Source: Candidatus Omnitrophota bacterium
GTDB taxonomy: Bacteria > Omnitrophota > Gorgyraeia > Zapsychrales > Fredricksoniimonadaceae
Direction of reading: 5' to 3'
Assembly (NCBI GenBank): GCA_028865345.1
Contig: JAGWKL010000015.1
Location: 1 to 35,639 of the forward strand
DNA length: 35,639 nucleotides
How positions within the stretch are numbered: the stretch's first letter is position 1; every line of letters starts with the position of its first letter. Shown piece after piece: positions 2-8,260 of the stretch. A program made the translations under genes and the position numbers. The notes beneath the pieces are model-generated. The model was not told the origin of the DNA. It did not search any database and was given only the letters and a program-made list of their open reading frames with translations.

Positions 2-355
2 CGGGAAACGGTGATTTTGATGTCCTTTATCTTCACGCCATTCAGGCGCAGTCACTTGTGGGGGTTCAGGATCAATTCATTGCTTGTCACCCTGTCCCTC
101 GTCGCCCCTTACTTCCTGATTTTTTATGGTTATATTTTGCTTTCCTTCGCCGCCCCACACTGGGCGTTGCGCCATGCGGTCATTATATTGCTCACCAGCC
201 TGCCTCTGGCGGCGATCTATTACACCGCCGAAAAAGATACGGATTTCGTATGGGTGATTGCTTACGGGTTCTTCTGGGTCCTCTCGTGCCAGTGGATCAT
301 CCCTTATGCTTTCCTGACCTGCCGCCGTCAGGGCGCGTGGCTTACGCGCGGCTGA
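2..355 (+). CDS. Partial membrane protein, possibly C-terminal end of a GT2 synthase
   Basis: This is the only plus-strand gene and its frame is open to the left edge, so the N-terminus is probably outside the window; a GTG at 11 and an ATG at 20 are possible internal starts. The visible part has about three hydrophobic segments and ends in a short basic tail with the motif AWLTRG after CRRQ. That layout (membrane helices, then a short tail ending in W-x-T-R) resembles the C-terminus of processive family 2 glycosyltransferases such as hyaluronan synthase/NodC-type enzymes, but the catalytic part is not visible, so this is only a suggestion. Its stop codon overlaps the 3' end of the converging giant gene by 14 bases. 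Confidence 0.5.
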   Translation, partial: RETVILMSFIFTPFRRSHLWGFRINSLLVTLSLVAPYFLIFYGYILLSFAAPHWALRHAVIILLTSLPLAAIYYTAEKDTDFVWVIAYGFFWVLSCQWIIPYAFLTCRRQGAWLTRG

Positions 356-3300
356 GGAACCCGTGAAGATCTGCGGTTTGCCGGATGCTGATGATCACCG
401 GCACAAAACCGGGGGAATCTTGAAGCTGTCGGAACATGGCAGGGTCGATATGGAATTTGATCCATGCGCCGGAATTTTGTATTTCCAAAGGCGTATTTTG
501 GGCGGTCAAATCAATACCGCCGTTCTCCGATACCGGTGCATGTGCCATCGCCTGATTTGCCTGCAATTCTATCCCCCGGGATTTTAAGAAATTAACGACA
601 ACATGGGGTCCCGATTGACCGGCGAAGAACCTGTAATTGTCGTCCATGGTGAAGTCCCGGCCATAGACATGCCTGTAACGCAGATAGCTGTCCAGCGCTT
701 CTTTCCAGGAATCATAATGCTGGTCCTGCGTATTGCTGATGATCCCATCCATGTCAAAAATAACGCCTTCAAGCCGACGCCCCGGATGTTTTTGATTAAA
801 CCAGGCTTTTAGGTGCTGAAGATCCAACCCTTCGGCCTCGTCGACATTGTGCACATCCTCCAAAATAATGTCCGCGCCGTTAGCCCGCAGCTCAGGCACG
901 ACATTCCTGTTTCTGGCGATGGCGACAATCAGGCCGAAACCTCCCTGCCTGGCGTCCTGGACACCCGCGGGGGCATCTTCAAAAACAACGGCATCTTGGG
1001 GATCCATGTCATCCATTCTTTGGGCGACGGCTTTAAAAAAATAGCCTGAAGATTTTTTAGGGACGCCCGGCGTGGTCGCATCAACCACCGTCCTGAACTT
1101 CGAGATGATCCCAAAATCTTCCAGGTTTTTCTTGGCATCCTTGCTCGATGATCCCACCCCCAACGCGTATCCGGCGCCGGCCAATTCCTGGATCAACCTT
1201 ACGGTCTTTGCATAGGGCTTAATAGGATCGAACCTGGCGATGGCGCCGAACAAGGCTCTTTTATAACCGATAATCACTTCCGGTGAAGTCGCCGGCCCCC
1301 ATTGCGGGGACTGTACCCCTGCCTGCTCGGTTGCCTCCTTGACCAATTGGGCGCTGTCCGCCGGACCCTGCCGGTCCTGCTCTTCCTGCGGATCGTCGGC
1401 TTCCACTATCGCAGGATTGACCTCAATGGGTTTTAAATTATGGAGCAGGCCCATCATTTCATTGATGACGGCCAATTTCTTTTGGCTCTTTTCGTCCATC
1501 CTATTTGCTAATTCCCTCAAATATTCCGGAATGAAAACTTTTCTTAAATAATCCACGGTCTGCCAGCGGTAAAAAGGGCTTTCTAAAATGCTTAAGATGA
1601 CGCCGGAATGATTGGGGTATGTTTTCTGCACCTCCAGGCGCATGGCTTCCGTCAATGGTTTGGGATGCCCCTGCGTCCCTTCTTTCTCCCTAAAGTAGCC
1701 TTCCTTCATCAGCCATTCAAAAAGATGTTCTATGCGGGGAGTTTTTAATTCGTTGAATTTTTCTTCAAACGTTTTTTCCGATACAGGCCCGGCAACAGGC
1801 ACAAACCCCGTTTTCTGCCTCAGGCCAAAACGTGTGTAGTTGCTCATAATATTAATGGTAGGGGTGCCGTTTTTCATGGTAGGGATATATTCCGGATAAA
1901 CACCCAGTATACGCTTAAAAGGACGGTCCGGACGTTCAAATCCATATTCGTTATAGCGCAAATGCCCCTGGGCCGCCAGTTCCAGGGCCACATACATCAG
2001 TGCCACGCCGGGATGGAGGTTCCCGAATTCATTGGAAAAAGCATTGATCGCCTTCTGCTGCCTCTGGACACCCTGCATCATAATGATACGAAGGGCGTCA
2101 CCCTGCGTATCAAGCCCTATCCTGAAAAACACTCCTTTTAAAGGATTCACCGGGCTGTGTTGTTCCACCCCCAGGGTCAAATAGTAGCCATTGGTGCTTT
2201 CCGCCAGACTGTATTGCATTCCTATAAAATATTTCGTACCCGGAATGTCCGCTTTGAATACGACATTTTGTTTGACAAAATCCGGTGAAGACATCTTCAT
2301 CAGGCGTTCAATATTGGCCCTGGCATCATTGATCTTTTCATTGGCATCCAGATAGGGAGCGCAATTATAAACAAACACCGGCTTGTCCAGCATCTGACTG
2401 TTTCTTACCCATACCATAAAAAACGCGTACAGAGCATCGTCGGAAACATTCTTAAGGGCTATTTTGTTCTGGGCTATTTTATTGTGGACCATCCATGTCA
2501 TGAGGGCATTCAATTCTCTCTGGGGAACGTTCCATTTTCGGGCAAGGACCTTCAGCCAGCCCGCTGCAATGGAAGGCGAACCGTTGGTTTGCTGGATAAC
2601 GATGTTGTTCCACAATTTCTTAAGCAGGGGCTTTTCCGGCAGTATTTTCTCGCTGCCCAACCATGATATTAAATCTTCCTGATCCTGGGGCTCCAGCATT
2701 CCCAGGTTCCTCATGGCACGGGTTTGGTTCTGCGCGGCCTGTTCGATCAACCCTTTCACCTCATCAGCCGTCTGGCCCTCATTAACCATGGCTGCATCTT
2801 TAAAAGAAGGGTAATTCTCAGACCGCATGTCGGCGGTAACCACATAAAGCGGGTCGTGTTCTTCAGGCATGACCCCAGTTACGGTCATTGCCATGTCCCC
2901 GAAGAAATTCACGCCCCCTGAGAAGTATTTCCTTGGGAAGGGCTGTTGGGTCCGGGGGTCGACCTCTTCCTTGATGTAGTCATAAGCGCCTTTTTTAAAA
3001 GCTTGCAGGTAGCGCTGGTAGATGGCCTCGACATCGCCGCCGGATTCCCCCGGAGTGCCGGAAGCATATCCAACCCCCTTGACCTTGTTCTTATCCGCAT
3101 AAACCTGCTCTAAAATGCTGTCCCTGATTTTCTTCTTATACCAATCAGCCAGGATAAGACTGTTGTAAACCTGGCGTAACCGGGCGAAGTTCCTGCCTTC
3201 ATTGACCTCCCTGGTCAGCTGGGGGATGACGATTTGACGGATGATGCCGGAGGCAAACCGGTTCATGGGGGTCATGTGACCGTTGACCTTATGCTTTTTC

Positions 3301-3938
3301 ATGGACAGATAATCCTGTTCCAGCATCACCTTGAGCCTGGCCTTAACCACATACGCGCTGCCTGCCTGGGCGTTCTCATACACCACCGCCTTGTCCGGGA
3401 CGATCCACACCTTGTTGAATGTATTGACAGGGACATCCGTTGTTCCGTATTTTGCCTGCGCCTCCTGATATACCTTCTTCCAAAATTCTTTGCCTATCCT
3501 TCCTTCGGGATAGATCAGCGACGCCGTGATCTGTTTGAGCATGTAATCCTCTGCCAACAAATCCCGGCCCATTTCCGTTAAGCCGAAACTTCGGGGAACG
3601 ATGCGGTCCTTTTCATAAGGACTTAAGTTTACCCAGAGGTCTTTTTCGGGGATGGTCAGGCTGGCCAGAAAATACTTGATCAGCCTGGCGGATTCATTCT
3701 TGAGTTGAGCATTGCCGATCCGGCTGTCGCCTTTATCAAGGATAAAGTCAAACCGGAAGGGATTATTGGTATGGACCTTGATGCCCTTGAGGACAGGCGG
3801 GGAAAAAGACGGACTTAAATGGACCATCACCCCCGGTGGCGGTAAACGAAGTCCGTCGGCCCGGGCCGACGGCAAGGGGCCGACCGTACCCGTACACAGA
3901 AAGCAAAGCAAGACCACCCATGATATAAATGATTTCAT
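342..3938 (-). CDS. Very large secreted protein with permuted HAD phosphatase module
   Basis: A protein of about 1198 residues with a signal peptide (hydrophobic core VVLLCFLC, likely cleavage after ARA near residue 29). I chose ATG at 3938; a TTG at 3944 would add two residues, and neither has a clear ribosome binding site. Residues 30-860 match no family I can name, but the style is one I associate from memory with Omnitrophota. From about residue 890 to 1055 there is the C-terminal half of a beta-phosphoglucomutase-type HAD enzyme: VGSSS (motif II, about 930), VPKKSS (motif III, about 963) and VFEDAPAG (motif IV, about 988). Only after this, at about 1060, comes the N-terminal half with motif I, FDMDG, plus its cap start. 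The last 60 residues (from ENGGIDL on) look like a separate small module. The order is thus permuted. The export signal and the HAD catalytic residues together are odd. Confidence 0.8.
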   Translation of the reverse strand: MKSFISWVVLLCFLCTGTVGPLPSARADGLRLPPPGVMVHLSPSFSPPVLKGIKVHTNNPFRFDFILDKGDSRIGNAQLKNESARLIKYFLASLTIPEKDLWVNLSPYEKDRIVPRSFGLTEMGRDLLAEDYMLKQITASLIYPEGRIGKEFWKKVYQEAQAKYGTTDVPVNTFNKVWIVPDKAVVYENAQAGSAYVVKARLKVMLEQDYLSMKKHKVNGHMTPMNRFASGIIRQIVIPQLTREVNEGRNFARLRQVYNSLILADWYKKKIRDSILEQVYADKNKVKGVGYASGTPGESGGDVEAIYQRYLQAFKKGAYDYIKEEVDPRTQQPFPRKYFSGGVNFFGDMAMTVTGVMPEEHDPLYVVTADMRSENYPSFKDAAMVNEGQTADEVKGLIEQAAQNQTRAMRNLGMLEPQDQEDLISWLGSEKILPEKPLLKKLWNNIVIQQTNGSPSIAAGWLKVLARKWNVPQRELNALMTWMVHNKIAQNKIALKNVSDDALYAFFMVWVRNSQMLDKPVFVYNCAPYLDANEKINDARANIERLMKMSSPDFVKQNVVFKADIPGTKYFIGMQYSLAESTNGYYLTLGVEQHSPVNPLKGVFFRIGLDTQGDALRIIMMQGVQRQQKAINAFSNEFGNLHPGVALMYVALELAAQGHLRYNEYGFERPDRPFKRILGVYPEYIPTMKNGTPTINIMSNYTRFGLRQKTGFVPVAGPVSEKTFEEKFNELKTPRIEHLFEWLMKEGYFREKEGTQGHPKPLTEAMRLEVQKTYPNHSGVILSILESPFYRWQTVDYLRKVFIPEYLRELANRMDEKSQKKLAVINEMMGLLHNLKPIEVNPAIVEADDPQEEQDRQGPADSAQLVKEATEQAGVQSPQWGPATSPEVIIGYKRALFGAIARFDPIKPYAKTVRLIQELAGAGYALGVGSSSKDAKKNLEDFGIISKFRTVVDATTPGVPKKSSGYFFKAVAQRMDDMDPQDAVVFEDAPAGVQDARQGGFGLIVAIARNRNVVPELRANGADIILEDVHNVDEAEGLDLQHLKAWFNQKHPGRRLEGVIFDMDGIISNTQDQHYDSWKEALDSYLRYRHVYGRDFTMDDNYRFFAGQSGPHVVVNFLKSRGIELQANQAMAHAPVSENGGIDLTAQNTPLEIQNSGAWIKFHIDPAMFRQLQDSPGFVPVIISIRQTADLHGFLSRA
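767..1277 (-). other. C-terminal half of HAD fold (motifs II-IV) within giant protein
   Basis: A domain-level note. This segment encodes about 170 residues matching the second half of beta-phosphoglucomutase-like hydrolases: motif II Ser, motif III Lys and motif IV Glu-Asp, with the G-F-G-L-I-V strand after it. The segment that should precede it (motif I Asp-x-Asp and cap) is instead encoded directly downstream, at about 560-767. The junction reads continuously in one frame, with no stop. Confidence 0.7.
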
Positions 3939-3947
3939 AGACAATAA

Positions 3948-3976
3948 AGGATAACATATAAACAGGAACGCGACAA
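3948..3976 (-). promoter_or_regulatory. Candidate promoter of the giant secreted protein gene
   Basis: Read on the minus strand there is TTGTCG at 3976-3971 and TATCCT at 3953-3948, with a 17-base spacer. Transcription would begin around 3941, almost at the ATG at 3938, giving a leaderless or nearly leaderless message. This fits the absence of a Shine-Dalgarno sequence there. Both hexamers match the consensus only at four of six positions, so this is tentative. Confidence 0.3.
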
Positions 3977-3995
3977 CCGCGAGAGCCCGGAAGAC

Positions 3996-4019
3996 AGAAA
4001 AGGACAGGTCCCTTTTTTA
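3996..4019 (-). terminator. Candidate intrinsic terminator after the Tyr/His-rich protein gene
   Basis: On the minus strand AAAAGG and CCTTTT can pair around a 7-base loop, directly after the stop codon of the upstream gene. The T-rich arm forms part of the stem, followed by CTGTCTT. The stem is short; a near-identical design recurs at about 5935-5960. Confidence 0.35.
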
Positions 4020-4691
4020 TTTCACATACATGGCCTTGAGCTGGGCAACGGTGGGAAAAGAGGCATAATATTCACCTTGCGGGCCGACATACCCCTTGCC
4101 TGACCTCTTAATGACCACGGTCGTATACCCGCCGCTGTTATTGGGGATATTGAGCGGAAAGCTGTCCTGGCCGTATGACGTTGCCGGCGCGGGCGGCGGG
4201 GCCGCCACCTCGACTTGTTGCGGTTGCTCCACGACCACAGGCGCGGGCTGTTCGTACACGACCGGTTGGGGCACCACCCTATAGCCGCGGGGCGTCCAAA
4301 CATAGTAAATGCCTTCACTCGTATAGTACGTCCTGCCGTTGATGATGACCGCCTGGAAATCCGGCGGAATGGCGCTGACATACGCCCCCACCGGCGGCTG
4401 CACGGTCACCCAATCCCCATAACCCGCATAGCTGTAATATACGCCGTCGCAATAAGAATACCTGGCGCCCTGTGACCAGATCGTGGTGCAATCCGGCGGC
4501 AGATAACGCTCATGATAACCCCAATACGGATGGTCACGCCAGTCATGATGCTCATCCCACCGATGGCGGTCCCAATCATGGTGATGCTCCGGCCCGCCCA
4601 CACCCACGCTCACGGCCCAATCCGCATAAGACCATTGGGAGCCCGTCGATAAAACCAGCATAAAAACCCCAAATATAATTTTTCTTAACAT
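4017..4691 (-). CDS. Secreted Tyr/His-rich protein (DUF6515-like)
   Basis: I place the start at ATG 4691, giving 224 residues, because AAGGAG lies 9 bases upstream; an in-frame ATG at 4745 lies within the upstream gene and lacks support. A signal peptide ends near SYA/DWAV. Residues about 30-65 are strikingly rich in His, Asp and Trp (HHHDWDRHRW and similar), suggesting metal binding. The middle holds repeated G-x-YY motifs (DGVYYSYAG, GRTYYTSEG, EGIYYVWTP) of the kind seen in DUF6515-type periplasmic or outer-membrane-associated proteins. Then comes a Pro/Val/Glu-rich linker, and a C-terminal domain with VVIKRSGKGYVGPQGEYY. Function unknown. It lies 40 bases after the MORN gene and is probably co-transcribed with it. 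Confidence 0.75.
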   Translation of the reverse strand: MLRKIIFGVFMLVLSTGSQWSYADWAVSVGVGGPEHHHDWDRHRWDEHHDWRDHPYWGYHERYLPPDCTTIWSQGARYSYCDGVYYSYAGYGDWVTVQPPVGAYVSAIPPDFQAVIINGRTYYTSEGIYYVWTPRGYRVVPQPVVYEQPAPVVVEQPQQVEVAAPPPAPATSYGQDSFPLNIPNNSGGYTTVVIKRSGKGYVGPQGEYYASFPTVAQLKAMYVK

Positions 4692-4731
4692 ACCTTGGTG
4701 CTCCTTCTTTAAATACGGGTGTCCGTCACCC

Positions 4732-5175
4732 TTATTGGCCGTCATCTTTATCGGCGTTTTTGACCGTAAAATCCCCGTCCTTGAATCGTCCCTGATAATG
4801 CTTGCCGGAAGGCATGATCAAAAGCCCCTGGCCGTTGATCTGGCCGTTGCTGAAATTCCCCTTATATGAGCCGCCGTCGGACCAGGTCAAGAGCCCCCGG
4901 CCGTTTAAAAGCCCGTTTTCAAACTGCCCTTCATATTTGCTGCCGTCGGTATAGACCAGGCTCCCTGGGCCGTCGTAAAGCCCGTGTTTAAATCCGCCGG
5001 TATATTCCCGCCCGTCGGGGCAGCTCAATGTCCCCTGCCCCTCGAGGGCCCCGTTGGCAAACGTGCCCTCATACGTACAGCCGTCGGGCAGGGTCTTTGT
5101 CTCAACCGCTGCGGCCCGGGCGCAGGCGCCCCATAAAACAAAAATAAGCAATGCCGCCCAGCCCTGTCTCACCAT
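4732..5175 (-). CDS. Secreted MORN-repeat protein
   Basis: A protein of 147 residues with a signal peptide (AALLIFVLWGACARA, probable cleavage before AAV). The mature part is made of four full MORN repeats and a partial fifth, each starting Y-x-G-x-F and continuing with a G-x-G-x-L core, at roughly residues 35-57, 58-80, 81-103, 104-126 and 127-140. MORN repeats form an open beta-sheet often used for lipid or protein contact at membranes; in bacteria their role is mostly unknown. An ACA motif near the cleavage site is not a proper lipobox (Trp at -3). The protein follows the kinase-like gene by 8 bases and precedes the Tyr/His-rich secreted protein, so all three may share a message. Confidence 0.8.
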   Translation of the reverse strand: MVRQGWAALLIFVLWGACARAAAVETKTLPDGCTYEGTFANGALEGQGTLSCPDGREYTGGFKHGLYDGPGSLVYTDGSKYEGQFENGLLNGRGLLTWSDGGSYKGNFSNGQINGQGLLIMPSGKHYQGRFKDGDFTVKNADKDDGQ

Positions 5176-5183
5176 GATTTTCC

Positions 5184-5870
5184 TTAAAATTGTTTTAAAA
5201 CCAGGCCGCCGATGAGCCGGGCTGTCTCTTGCGGCCCGACCGCATCAACATTAATGACAAGATCGTACAATAAGGGGTCGGCGTTGTCCTTGCCAAAATA
5301 CTTTTTAACGTAGTCCCTTCGATTACGGTCCTTTTTAAGCACAAACTCCCTGGCTTCTTTTTTGCTGACCTTCAGGTATTCCTGCATATGTTCGATGCGC
5401 TTCTCCAGCGGGCTGATAAGCCTCACATGCACCCCGCCCGGCACCTTGGCGGTGATGATGCCGGATGCCCTGCCGATGATGATGGCATATCCCAACTGGG
5501 CCAGCTGGAGAATGGTTTCGCTGGTTTCATGGACCAGCAGATACCTGGACGGATGCAGGCCGAAGAGCTCCTCCATCAAATCCTCGACTTCGGAGATCGT
5601 CGATTCCGACATATACGGCAGGACGGTTTCCGGCAGCTCAAGGCCGTCCACCACCTTCTTGAGCACTTCCTTGTCAAACACCGTCCACGGGCATTTCTCC
5701 CGCCTCTCATTTTTCTGCAGGTATTCGCATAACTTCCTGGCCACCGTCAATCCATAGGCCCCGGTCTGGCGGGAGATGGTCACGTAAGGCCGGTTGGTCC
5801 TCCTGTTTTTCTGGGGATCTTCCCTTAATTTCTTGGCCTGGGAATGAATGTAGGAAGTGTAATCATTCAT
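5184..5870 (-). CDS. Cytidylate kinase-like family protein
   Basis: 228 residues. The N-terminal strand and loop PYVTISRQTGAYGLTVARKL (residues 28-47) match the pattern of the cytidylate-kinase-like family (Cytidylate_kin2), in which the P-loop is written S-R-x-x-G-x-x-G rather than the classic GxxxxGK[ST]. Further on are IIIGRASG and an Arg-rich lid region (EKRIEHMQEY, KKDRNRRDYVKKYFGKD), typical for nucleoside monophosphate kinases. The role of this family is not established; true CMP kinase would normally be a separate gene. It is first in a three-gene unit with the two small secreted proteins. Confidence 0.75.
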   Translation of the reverse strand: MNDYTSYIHSQAKKLREDPQKNRRTNRPYVTISRQTGAYGLTVARKLCEYLQKNERREKCPWTVFDKEVLKKVVDGLELPETVLPYMSESTISEVEDLMEELFGLHPSRYLLVHETSETILQLAQLGYAIIIGRASGIITAKVPGGVHVRLISPLEKRIEHMQEYLKVSKKEAREFVLKKDRNRRDYVKKYFGKDNADPLLYDLVINVDAVGPQETARLIGGLVLKQF

Positions 5871-5933
5871 AGGAAACTCGGGTCAATTTATGATCTGAAT
5901 GCCATTACTCTATCACACGGCCCCATGCCGCGC

Positions 5934-5960
5934 AAGAAAAAGGGGCTTGTCCTTTTTACC
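5934..5960 (-). terminator. Candidate intrinsic terminator after DUF190 gene
   Basis: In the 93-base gap between the DUF190 stop and the next gene, the minus strand reads AAAAAGG, a 7-base loop, then CCTTTTT: a short hairpin whose A and T tracts are part of the stem. It would end the channel/CrcB/DUF190 message. The rest of the gap probably holds the promoter for the kinase-like gene, though I see no convincing hexamers. Confidence 0.4.
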
Positions 5961-5963
5961 ATT

Positions 5964-6305
5964 TTAGACGGGAGGGTTTGCCTTATACATGATGACGTTG
6001 GCCTTTTCCAGGGTGATGAGCCCGTCGCAGACCATCTCATCCAGGCACGGCAGGAAGGCTGCTATTTTTTCCTCACTATCGACGATTTCGATGACCATGG
6101 GCAAATCCTCGGAAAGCCTTAATAATTTCGAGGTGTGCATGTGGCTCTTGCAGCCGAACCCCATGCAGCCCTTGACCACTGTGGCCCCGGCCATTTTATT
6201 CTTGCGGGCCGTTTCAACGATCATCTCGTACAAAGGACGGTTGTGCCACTGGTCCCTTTCACCGACGAATATTCTTAACAGTTGTCCATTGGAAGGGATC
6301 TTCAT
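5964..6305 (-). CDS. DUF190 family protein (paired with CrcB)
   Basis: 113 residues of a small cytosolic alpha/beta protein of the DUF190 family, recognised by LLRIFVGE near the start, GATVVKGCMGFG in the middle and LPMVIEIVDSEEKI in the second half. The fold is PII-like. DUF190 genes sit next to crcB in many genomes, as here, and are thought to act with the fluoride channel, but a biochemical role is not established. It follows crcB by 22 bases with the same orientation. ATG 6305 is preceded by GAGAGGTGG, a good ribosome binding site. Confidence 0.85.
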   Translation of the reverse strand: MKIPSNGQLLRIFVGERDQWHNRPLYEMIVETARKNKMAGATVVKGCMGFGCKSHMHTSKLLRLSEDLPMVIEIVDSEEKIAAFLPCLDEMVCDGLITLEKANVIMYKANPPV

Positions 6306-6327
6306 TGTCCACCTCTCTCAAAAACGA

Positions 6328-6702
6328 TTAAATGATTTGACCGATCAAAATCCCCAAGCGCAGGGCGATAAAACCGACGATCGTACTTAAAAAAATATTG
6401 GCCAGGGCCTTGAACATTTCCCCCCCCATCACCAGATGGGAGGTTTCGAGCATATAGGTTGAAAACGTCGTGTAGGCCCCGCAAAATCCCACCATCAAAA
6501 AGACCTTGGCGCCGGGGCCGAGCAGGACCCGATCGTCGATAAGGGTCGAGAGAAAACCGACCAGAAAACAACCCGAAAGATTGACGATCAGGGTCCCGAA
6601 AGGAAAGTCCGTGCCCAATTTCTGGTAAAGATATCCGGCAAAATAGTACCGCGCCAATGTCCCTGAGGCCCCGCCCAATATCAAATAAACCAATTTTGCC
6701 AT
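6328..6702 (-). CDS. crcB: Fluoride ion channel CrcB/Fluc
   Basis: 124 residues, normal length, with four membrane helices. Family motifs are clear: GGASGTLARYY (Arg18), FGTLIVNLSGCFLVGF with the conserved Asn41, and GFCGAYTTFSTYMLE (residues 72-86) holding the pore phenylalanines and sodium-site region. Fluc channels are dual-topology dimers that export fluoride. The gene starts 7 bases after the stop of the upstream membrane protein gene, so there is no room for a fluoride riboswitch directly before it; any control would come from further upstream in the operon. Confidence 0.92.
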   Translation of the reverse strand: MAKLVYLILGGASGTLARYYFAGYLYQKLGTDFPFGTLIVNLSGCFLVGFLSTLIDDRVLLGPGAKVFLMVGFCGAYTTFSTYMLETSHLVMGGEMFKALANIFLSTIVGFIALRLGILIGQII

Positions 6703-6709
6703 ATATTTT

Positions 6710-7225
6710 CTAAACCTCCCTGGCGTCCACGTCTATGATATCGCCTTCTTGATGCGGGCGGGAAGGATCCAAAGTCAACAGCCATTGGCTGTAATACTTC
6801 ATGCCGTAAGCAAACCCGCCCCACAGGGCCAGATGCTCCGCCACATGCCAGGCGTTGCTGAAAAGCGCTCCGGCCAAGGCGATGAAGACCAGGTACTTGA
6901 ACAAAAATGCAAACAATATCCCGAAAAACCCGAAGGCTTTGATGACAAACAGGAACGCCAGTATCCAGGTGGCTGTGCCCAGGGCGTGGGACATCAAAAG
7001 CGAATACAAAGACAGGGTCGGCCTTAAAGGTTTAATGAGGGTGGCGGGAAGGAAGCCCACCACAAAAACGATGATCGTAAGATACGCCACGACGATCAAT
7101 ACGGGCAGGAAGAATTCCATGATCGCAGTCAGGCCCCAGAAGAAAACCAGCAGAAAAAGGACGGTGCCTATGATGAAAAAAAGAGGGAAACCGAAATTTT
7201 TTGATCCGGTGTATATTTTCAACAT
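6710..7225 (-). CDS. Multi-pass membrane protein of unknown function
   Basis: 171 residues with roughly five hydrophobic segments (about 12-33, 35-58, 75-95, 97-120, 120-140) and a soluble, acidic tail ending in EGDIIDVDAREV. A central HAEHLALWGG segment contains two His in a membrane-proximal position. I do not recognise the family. It lies between the KirBac-like channel (16 bases upstream) and crcB (7 bases downstream), so it is most likely expressed with two ion channels and may itself be a transport or regulatory membrane protein; that is inference from position only. Confidence 0.65.
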   Translation of the reverse strand: MLKIYTGSKNFGFPLFFIIGTVLFLLVFFWGLTAIMEFFLPVLIVVAYLTIIVFVVGFLPATLIKPLRPTLSLYSLLMSHALGTATWILAFLFVIKAFGFFGILFAFLFKYLVFIALAGALFSNAWHVAEHLALWGGFAYGMKYYSQWLLTLDPSRPHQEGDIIDVDAREV

Positions 7226-7240
7226 TTTACTCGGGGCCTC

Positions 7241-8260
7241 TCAAGAATCTCCGGAGGTATTCGCCTCGTACAGGTCGTGGATCCCTTTAAGGTCGATGTG
7301 TACCTTTTTATCGTGCCATATTATGATATCTTTAAAACGGCGGTTGTAAACAATGTCTTCCATGGAATACGCGTGGCGGGCGATGATGGGCTGCGAGAAA
7401 GTTTCATCCGTGCCTGTCAGGGAGGCCAGGACGCCCATTTGGGCCTCCCTCATTTTGGCCTCGTCCATGCCGAACAACGGGCTTCTCTCGTCGATAAAAT
7501 GCCGGACGGTCCAGCTTAATGAAAACAGCGGGGTGTGATCGCGCTCCAGCTTCAGGTCGTAAAATTTACGCGTCTTTTCCCCTTCCAGGCTGGTCTCATT
7601 CTTGGTCATGTGCAGGGTCATGCGCGCTTCCGCGATCTGGTTTAAGCGCTCGTTGGCGATCCGGAAAAACAGGCACGGGGCGCCGTTATGCCGGCTGATG
7701 ATCGCCTTGTTGCTGAAAATGACCCTGGCCGTGGCCCTGGAAAACCGGGCATAAAAAAGGCCGGTGATAACGGCAAAGGTCAGCAGGCCCAGGAATGCCT
7801 GGACCGTCATCAGCGCATGGACCACCAGACCCGCCGGGCCGGCCCTGCCGTAATCCACGGCGACCATGTTCTCCACACTTAAAAAGAAACATTGGCTGAA
7901 ATGTTTGTCTACCCCGCTTAGCAAATACAGGCCGGCAAAAAACAGGTTTATCAGGACATAGACGGCCGCGGCGTAAATGAAAAATTTGGGCCAGGAGAGG
8001 GAAAAAAGATAGTGGTAAAGATCGGCAAAGGGGTTATGCTTCTCACGGGTGCCGTGGACGTTCAGCTTCCCCTGCCTGTTGATCAGGGCGCGGAAATGAA
8101 AGGATTGCGCGTGTAACGATTGACGGGCGTTTTGCATTTTACTTGCGGCATGTTCCTTTCCACGTAAGGGGCGCTGGATGATATTTTCTCCGCGATGACA
8201 CAACTTTACGACATCAAAGGAAGTGCTGCTCAAGCCTTTTGACACTCGACCCTGCATCAA
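7241..8260 (-). CDS. KirBac-like inward-rectifier channel with altered selectivity filter
   Basis: Membrane layout and domain order match bacterial Kir channels: slide helix (DLYHYLFSLSWPKF, about 80-93), TM1 (94-114), pore helix (CFFLSVENM), filter, TM2 (about 146-170), then the cytoplasmic immunoglobulin-like domain with LFFRIANER, RMTLHM, FSLSWTVRHFIDE and SLTGTDETFSQ. The usual filter T-[VI]-G-Y-G is instead A-V-D-Y-G (residues 134-138; codons at 7861-7847), so Thr and the first Gly are lost. Start: ATG 8260 overlaps the preceding stop (ATGA), but the first 41 residues look unlike the family and ATG 8137 (298 residues) gives a family-typical N-terminus. Potassium conduction should not be assumed. 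Confidence 0.85.
   Translation of the reverse strand: MMQGRVSKGLSSTSFDVVKLCHRGENIIQRPLRGKEHAASKMQNARQSLHAQSFHFRALINRQGKLNVHGTREKHNPFADLYHYLFSLSWPKFFIYAAAVYVLINLFFAGLYLLSGVDKHFSQCFFLSVENMVAVDYGRAGPAGLVVHALMTVQAFLGLLTFAVITGLFYARFSRATARVIFSNKAIISRHNGAPCLFFRIANERLNQIAEARMTLHMTKNETSLEGEKTRKFYDLKLERDHTPLFSLSWTVRHFIDERSPLFGMDEAKMREAQMGVLASLTGTDETFSQPIIARHAYSMEDIVYNRRFKDIIIWHDKKVHIDLKGIHDLYEANTSGDS

Follow-up and report, generated by a model that had tools for sequence, protein, structure and literature searches.

The window, i.e., the whole stretch of DNA that was analyzed (35,639 nucleotides; contig JAGWKL010000015.1 of assembly GCA_028865345.1), comes from a Candidatus Omnitrophota bacterium. Near one end, an uninterrupted frame of 1200 codons on the minus strand encodes a large protein, for which an ATG two codons inside the frame is an alternative and possibly the true start. 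Toward its C-terminus, this protein carries a domain of the haloacid dehalogenase (HAD) superfamily whose parts are arranged in swapped order. The features of the locus are as follows:

342–3944, minus strand: open reading frame of 1200 amino acids hosting the permuted domain (from the list of frames and the homologues of the N-terminal module)
3852–3938, minus strand: signal-peptide-like N-terminus, residues 3–31, MKSFISWVVLLCFLCTGTVGPLPSARA/DG (recognized by eye)
2886–3851, minus strand: conserved N-terminal module, residues ~32–353, common to a family of secreted giant proteins (from homologues)
1281–2885, minus strand: middle region, residues ~354–888, with no recognized family in Pfam or NCBIfam
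777–1280, minus strand: first piece of the HAD domain, residues 889–1056, with cap helix 4, motifs II, III and IV and the natural C-terminal helix (profile positions 95–236; helix 15–32 to helix 169–179 of the AlphaFold2 model)
1143–1151, minus strand: motif II, Ser932–Ser934 (SSS), the first Ser aligning with Ser114 of Lactococcus β-phosphoglucomutase
1053–1055, minus strand: motif III, Lys964 (Lys in both permuted copies; 98% conserved among relatives)
975–980, minus strand: motif IV, Glu989-Asp990 (99% conserved and present in both permuted copies)
774–797, minus strand: junction of the natural C-terminus LKAWFNQKHPGRR with the natural N-terminus LEGVIFDMDG (compared with normal-order relatives)
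564–773, minus strand: second piece of the HAD domain, residues 1058–1127, with motif I (FDMDG, residues 1063–1067; Asp1064, Asp1066), Thr1072 and cap helices 1–3 (profile positions 2–79; strand 187–191 to helix 240–248 of the model)
345–533, minus strand: C-terminal tail, residues 1138–1200, GGIDLTAQNTPLEIQ...PGFVPVIISI, common to the giant family (tails 49–63% identical in many giants)

The host protein is apparently exported, as suggested by its signal-peptide-like start, which the earlier note had also read as a signal peptide. Judged by eye, a secreted MORN-repeat-like protein (4732–5175, minus strand) adjoins the giant, and the neighboring small frames at 5964–6702 (minus strand) look similar to a protein of the DUF190 type and a fluoride exporter of the CrcB type.

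The HAD domain (residues 889–1127) is of the β-phosphoglucomutase (β-PGM) type and is best placed at 564–1280 of the window, against 560–1277 in the earlier note. That note had given the frame and the motif order correctly: motifs II, III and IV come first and motif I last, all between residues 932 and 1067 of the 1200-residue protein. The order I-II-III-IV is thus lacking in the window, as it is in a second copy from genome G021, both reading II-III-IV-I. The subfamily name proposed there was also right, the closest solved structure being the β-PGM Rv3400. Pfam HAD_2 aligned residues 906–1004 with profile positions 76–174 of 178, and TIGR02009 aligned residues 893–1003 with positions 73–181 of 186, a second stretch matching elsewhere. 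The scores for TIGR01990 and TIGR02009 (66.7 and 80.8 bits) lie below the curated cut-offs (189.4 and 153.35 bits), although these models would penalize any permuted domain.

A normal-order HAD profile was built from 107 relatives. It matched the domain in two stretches, model positions 95–236 at residues 895–1035 (i-E 6e-27) followed by 2–79 at residues 1059–1132 (i-E 1e-14). These stretches do not overlap, each model position is used at most once, and only positions 80–94, a single cap loop, lie at the cut. A profile permuted in silico gave one colinear match covering positions 12–234 of 236 with 149.5 bits. Likewise, comparison with solved Rv3400 (PDB 8h5s) placed model positions 165–227 on chain residues 21–95 and 3–152 on 107–259 (E 7.7e-52). 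The match in swapped order is well beyond chance. At the junction, the natural end ..DLQHLKAWFNQKHPGRR directly precedes the natural start LEGVIFDMDG; in normal-order relatives the corresponding segments are ..IEYFESWFNKKPKPL (cf. ..DIEYFESWFNKKPKPL) and TFDSVIFDLDG. Each part of the fold is therefore present once, the old ends are joined, and the new ends lie at one place, as in a natural circular permutant. The source is a draft assembly of 65 contigs, in which a misjoin or frameshift might mimic such an order. This explanation is refuted by the one unbroken frame of 1200 codons and by the same order in the independent genome G021 at 35% identity, and its probability is close to nil.

The fold was predicted with AlphaFold2 for residues 874–1138, using an alignment of the window sequence with unpaired halves of relatives. 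Both pieces form one globular HAD domain (pLDDT 87.9, pTM 0.84), as the earlier note had proposed to check; a normal-order control, L112, reached pLDDT 96.4 and pTM 0.88. The model shows a Rossmann-like core with a helical cap inserted after motif I, an arrangement taken from the predicted structure. Its secondary-structure elements are those of the control (E-H-H-H / H-H-E-H...) with the first four shifted to the end. In a Foldseek search, the top match was Rv3400 (8h5s), aligned over 133 columns at 1.4 Å for the permutant and over 237 columns for the control. The shorter match is as expected, because Foldseek aligns sequentially. Since the halves were unpaired in the alignment, their packing reflects inference by AlphaFold2 and not paired covariation, and the HAD fold is one that AlphaFold2 knows well. 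The short junction linker could also suit a domain-swapped dimer, in which the N-terminal piece of one giant pairs with the C-terminal piece of another, but the single-chain model is confident throughout (pTM 0.84), which makes such a dimer very improbable.

The related genome G021, a congener of the window genome, has the identical swapped order, which answers the earlier note's question of whether the order is conserved. Its copy (contig C17, L046; a frame of 1720 amino acids at 1255–6417, minus strand) has the same cut site and is 35% identical to the window domain. In L046, the HAD unit directly follows the N-terminal module and is flanked by SDQAM and EDQAM separators, whereas the window unit adjoins the C-terminal tail. 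These different contexts imply that the unit moved as a whole, and the shared order and cut site argue for one mobile domain. No third HAD permutant was found among the matches listed for three genome sets (384 from the phylum and 384 from the class, which overlap, and 32 from the family); the remaining listed matches were partial, as expected of normal order. Within the window's own family, other HAD proteins matched only weakly, the three that were checked belonged to a distant group, and no close normal-order copy was found. Viral contigs gave no match. The same-class genome G340 and Candidatus Saelkia tenebricola have identical HAD copies.

Searched separately, both halves were nearest to the same subfamily, with best identities of 45% for the N half and 41% for the C half. 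Separate trees of the halves had low resolution. The joined tree groups the two permutants as sisters with an SH-aLRT support of 89; both lie on long branches, and this grouping may be due to long-branch attraction. In both, G-x-S-G replaces GKPR. Together with the common cut site and junction, this feature speaks for a single permutation event.

The earlier note had offered two options, a circular permutation or a pair of half-domains remaining from a tandem duplication. Half-domains surviving as relics that do not fold together or do not function would account for the shortness of the motif I half and for the changed cap specificity residues, and either history would probably have begun with a tandem duplication. 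Nevertheless, the pieces together make up a complete fold that is cut once, the catalytic set is intact in two copies at 35% identity, a unit with the same boundaries occurs in a different protein context, and AlphaFold2 yields one confident domain. We consider such relics improbable. The option that stands is circular permutation, supported by the complete, non-overlapping fold, the one-domain model, the G021 copy and the catalytic residues. The two outcomes that the note had named as refuting its observation did not occur, since the pieces form one predicted fold and the related genome has the swapped order. Because a tandem duplication is its probable origin, the two options would be linked in history.

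Residue conservation was scored against the 107 relatives, and numbering was transferred through alignments to β-PGM. Both permutants keep the Asp pair of motif I (Asp1064 and Asp1066 in the window) with the following Thr and Trp, the first Ser of motif II (Ser932), the Lys of motif III (Lys964) and the Glu-Asp of motif IV (Glu989 and Asp990). The positions of motifs I, III and IV are 98–100% conserved in relatives, and all seven core catalytic positions are intact in both copies at about 35% overall identity. In contrast, the position of Lactococcus β-PGM Arg49 (R60 of L112) is Arg in 99% of relatives but Gly in both permutants. K96 of L112 is Lys in the window and Arg in G021. In the G021 copy, H20 and the Ser-Lys-Asn (SKN) substrate-site residues, including the K117 and N118 equivalents, are changed. 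Arg49 of β-PGM holds the distal phosphate. The set of Arg49 and lysines that hold this phosphate is thus incomplete in both copies, and with the loss of the Arg49 equivalent, a phosphatase acting on some phosphate ester is likelier than a mutase. Mutase function is doubtful, and the domain is probably a catalytically competent phosphatase.

A true permutant might still be catalytically dead and have a binding or structural role in the giant. The Gly at the Arg49 position in both copies and the altered K117/N118 equivalents in G021 point in this direction, as does the fact that most giants of the family carry enzyme-like domains that would normally be found in a quite different compartment; the seven core positions retained at about 35% identity point against it. 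Judged independently of the other alternatives, a dead module is unlikely, though distinctly more plausible than any of them.

We therefore consider it very probable that residues 889–1127 form a single C1-capped β-PGM-type HAD domain of the Rv3400/OtsB1-N-terminal subfamily that was circularly permuted in nature, most likely through duplication, and that is probably a phosphatase. In the proposed route, the HAD segment would have been duplicated in tandem and in frame, and the outer cap parts would then have been lost. New ends would have opened in one cap loop (model positions 80–94, flanked by the SRGI and GNRKN helices), with the old ends joined through a short linker. The unit would subsequently have been transferred as a whole between secreted giant proteins. 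The chain would be expected to fold in vivo to the usual Rossmann-like core and helical cap, so that the nucleophile Asp1064 and the acid/base Asp1066, now on the C-terminal side, would meet Ser932, Lys964 and the Mg-binding Glu989 and Asp990. The probable outcome would be hydrolysis of a sugar phosphate or another small phosphate outside the cytoplasm.

The host has all the marks of a family of giants, namely a signal-peptide-like start (by eye), an N-terminal module of about 350 residues and a GGIDL...PGFVPVI tail. The N-terminal module has about 19 other matches in the same genome and 18–72 per genome in the genus, and it had no Pfam match and no significant PDB match. Homologues of window positions 2886–3938 in G000 and G019–G024 represent a huge paralogue expansion with different enzyme-like middles, with up to 72 matches per genome. 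These middles comprise GGDEF, protein kinase, response regulator, PPDK, starch synthase, PGM/PMM, histidine-kinase ATPase, MutS, acyl carrier repeats, Fic, NUDIX, peptidase M3 and HEAT. Motifs of the form [DN]xAM (DQAM, DRAM, DAAM) recur between the domains of giants like separators (L046, L188–L205, L208–L247).

A second enzyme of this protein family shows such a swap too, which the earlier note missed. Triosephosphate isomerase (TIM) is permuted in four giants, from four genera of the order:

L217 (G021, 3139 amino acids), residues 590–885, locus 6764–7666, minus strand: C-terminal part first, then the N-terminal NWK segment
L278 (G030, another genus), residues 397–684: same swapped order
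L279, residues 2319–2590: same swapped order
L281, residues 646–900: same swapped order

In L217, the C part aligns with TIM chains (start at residue 85–125, end at residue 258) and is followed by ..DGRIPYFGANWKTNRP.., the usual TIM N-terminus with the active-site Asn and Lys. L278 matches this permuted TIM along the whole permuted length with 55–59% identity. In a profile comparison of the four permuted with 27 normal TIMs, positions 4–203 matched 51–250 (E 1.7e-51). A second match, 213–265 to 3–57, was modest (E 3.4e-4; 2.1e-5 for the tail alone) but includes the conserved N-x-K-T. The catalytic Asn, Lys, His and Glu are retained. Two further candidates were rejected: L282 has the normal order, and in L280 the C part is not followed by an N-terminal TIM piece.

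L217 (G021:C10:1–9566) combines the permuted TIM, GAPDH, a DeoC/LacD-type aldolase and enolase in one exported-looking protein, i.e., a glycolysis polyprotein; L278 has TIM, GAPDH and the regions after them in common with it. The 3299-residue frame L281 has a second, more degenerate TIM copy (residues 1532–1676) beside the permuted one.

Other domains that were checked gave no sign of a swap. No swapped order was seen in the PGM/PMM of L198, the uridylyltransferase of L233 or the MutS of L208, and an all-against-all BLAST of 70 giants revealed no swapped-order pair, a comparison that would miss the TIM case because only one of the 70 held a TIM. Since several domains are in normal order, permutation is recurrent and not general. 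The best reading of these sequences is that circular permutation is recurrent in these giants of Omnitrophota, affecting two unrelated folds in one protein family. It could further be imagined, although we lean against it, that the giants acquire enzyme domains by a process that repeatedly gives permutants, such as tandem or circular DNA intermediates opened anew between DxAM-type separators. Permutation might then be a regular family feature, with the HAD and TIM cases independent and both enzymes, their catalytic residues kept, working outside the cytoplasm. The open-access literature searched, a part of the whole literature, contained no HAD enzyme and no TIM that is circularly permuted in nature. 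Two unrelated permuted enzymes in one family would offer a natural system for studying the origin of permutants and the reasons for their retention. They also draw attention to a large, almost unannotated and apparently exported family in a little-known phylum, whose cargo is cytosol-type enzymes and related proteins (glycolytic enzymes, kinases, GGDEF, PPDK, acyl carrier proteins).

Giant frames of Omnitrophota have been reported as large secreted or membrane-associated proteins of unexplained role, and frames over 20 kb were counted (PMC10066038); the parts of that report consulted do not describe the N-terminal module family or the permuted enzymes. The two permuted enzymes share this giant family but differ in fold, the TIM barrel being unrelated to HAD and cut before strand 3. 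Among HAD enzymes, the nearest solved relative by both sequence and fold is Rv3400 of Mycobacterium tuberculosis (PDB 8h5s). It has the same kind of cap and all core catalytic positions, yet it is a separate chain of 260 residues with the order I-II-III-IV, whereas the permuted domain lies inside a giant; the Arg equivalent to R49, found in 99% of relatives, is Gly in the permutants. The nearest normal-order relatives, in Omnitrophota and Bacteroidota, are in many cases β-PGM domains fused to GH65 or OtsB (OtsB1/Rv2006 type). Normal-order relatives in general are widespread and Rv3400-like, often with Pfam GH65 or Trehalose_PPase beside the HAD domain, and their GH65 and trehalose-phosphatase fusions are similar to Rv2006-type proteins. 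In these fusions, the HAD domain comes first, in normal order and without a surrounding giant, unlike the permutants. Lactococcus lactis β-PGM (PDB 1lvh and others) is not permuted and has R49 where the permutant has Gly, but its D8, D10, T16, S114, K145, E169 and D170 all have counterparts in the permutant. Collectively, the domain is a circularly permuted variant of the β-PGM-type HAD family, a member by fold and motifs and not by motif order.
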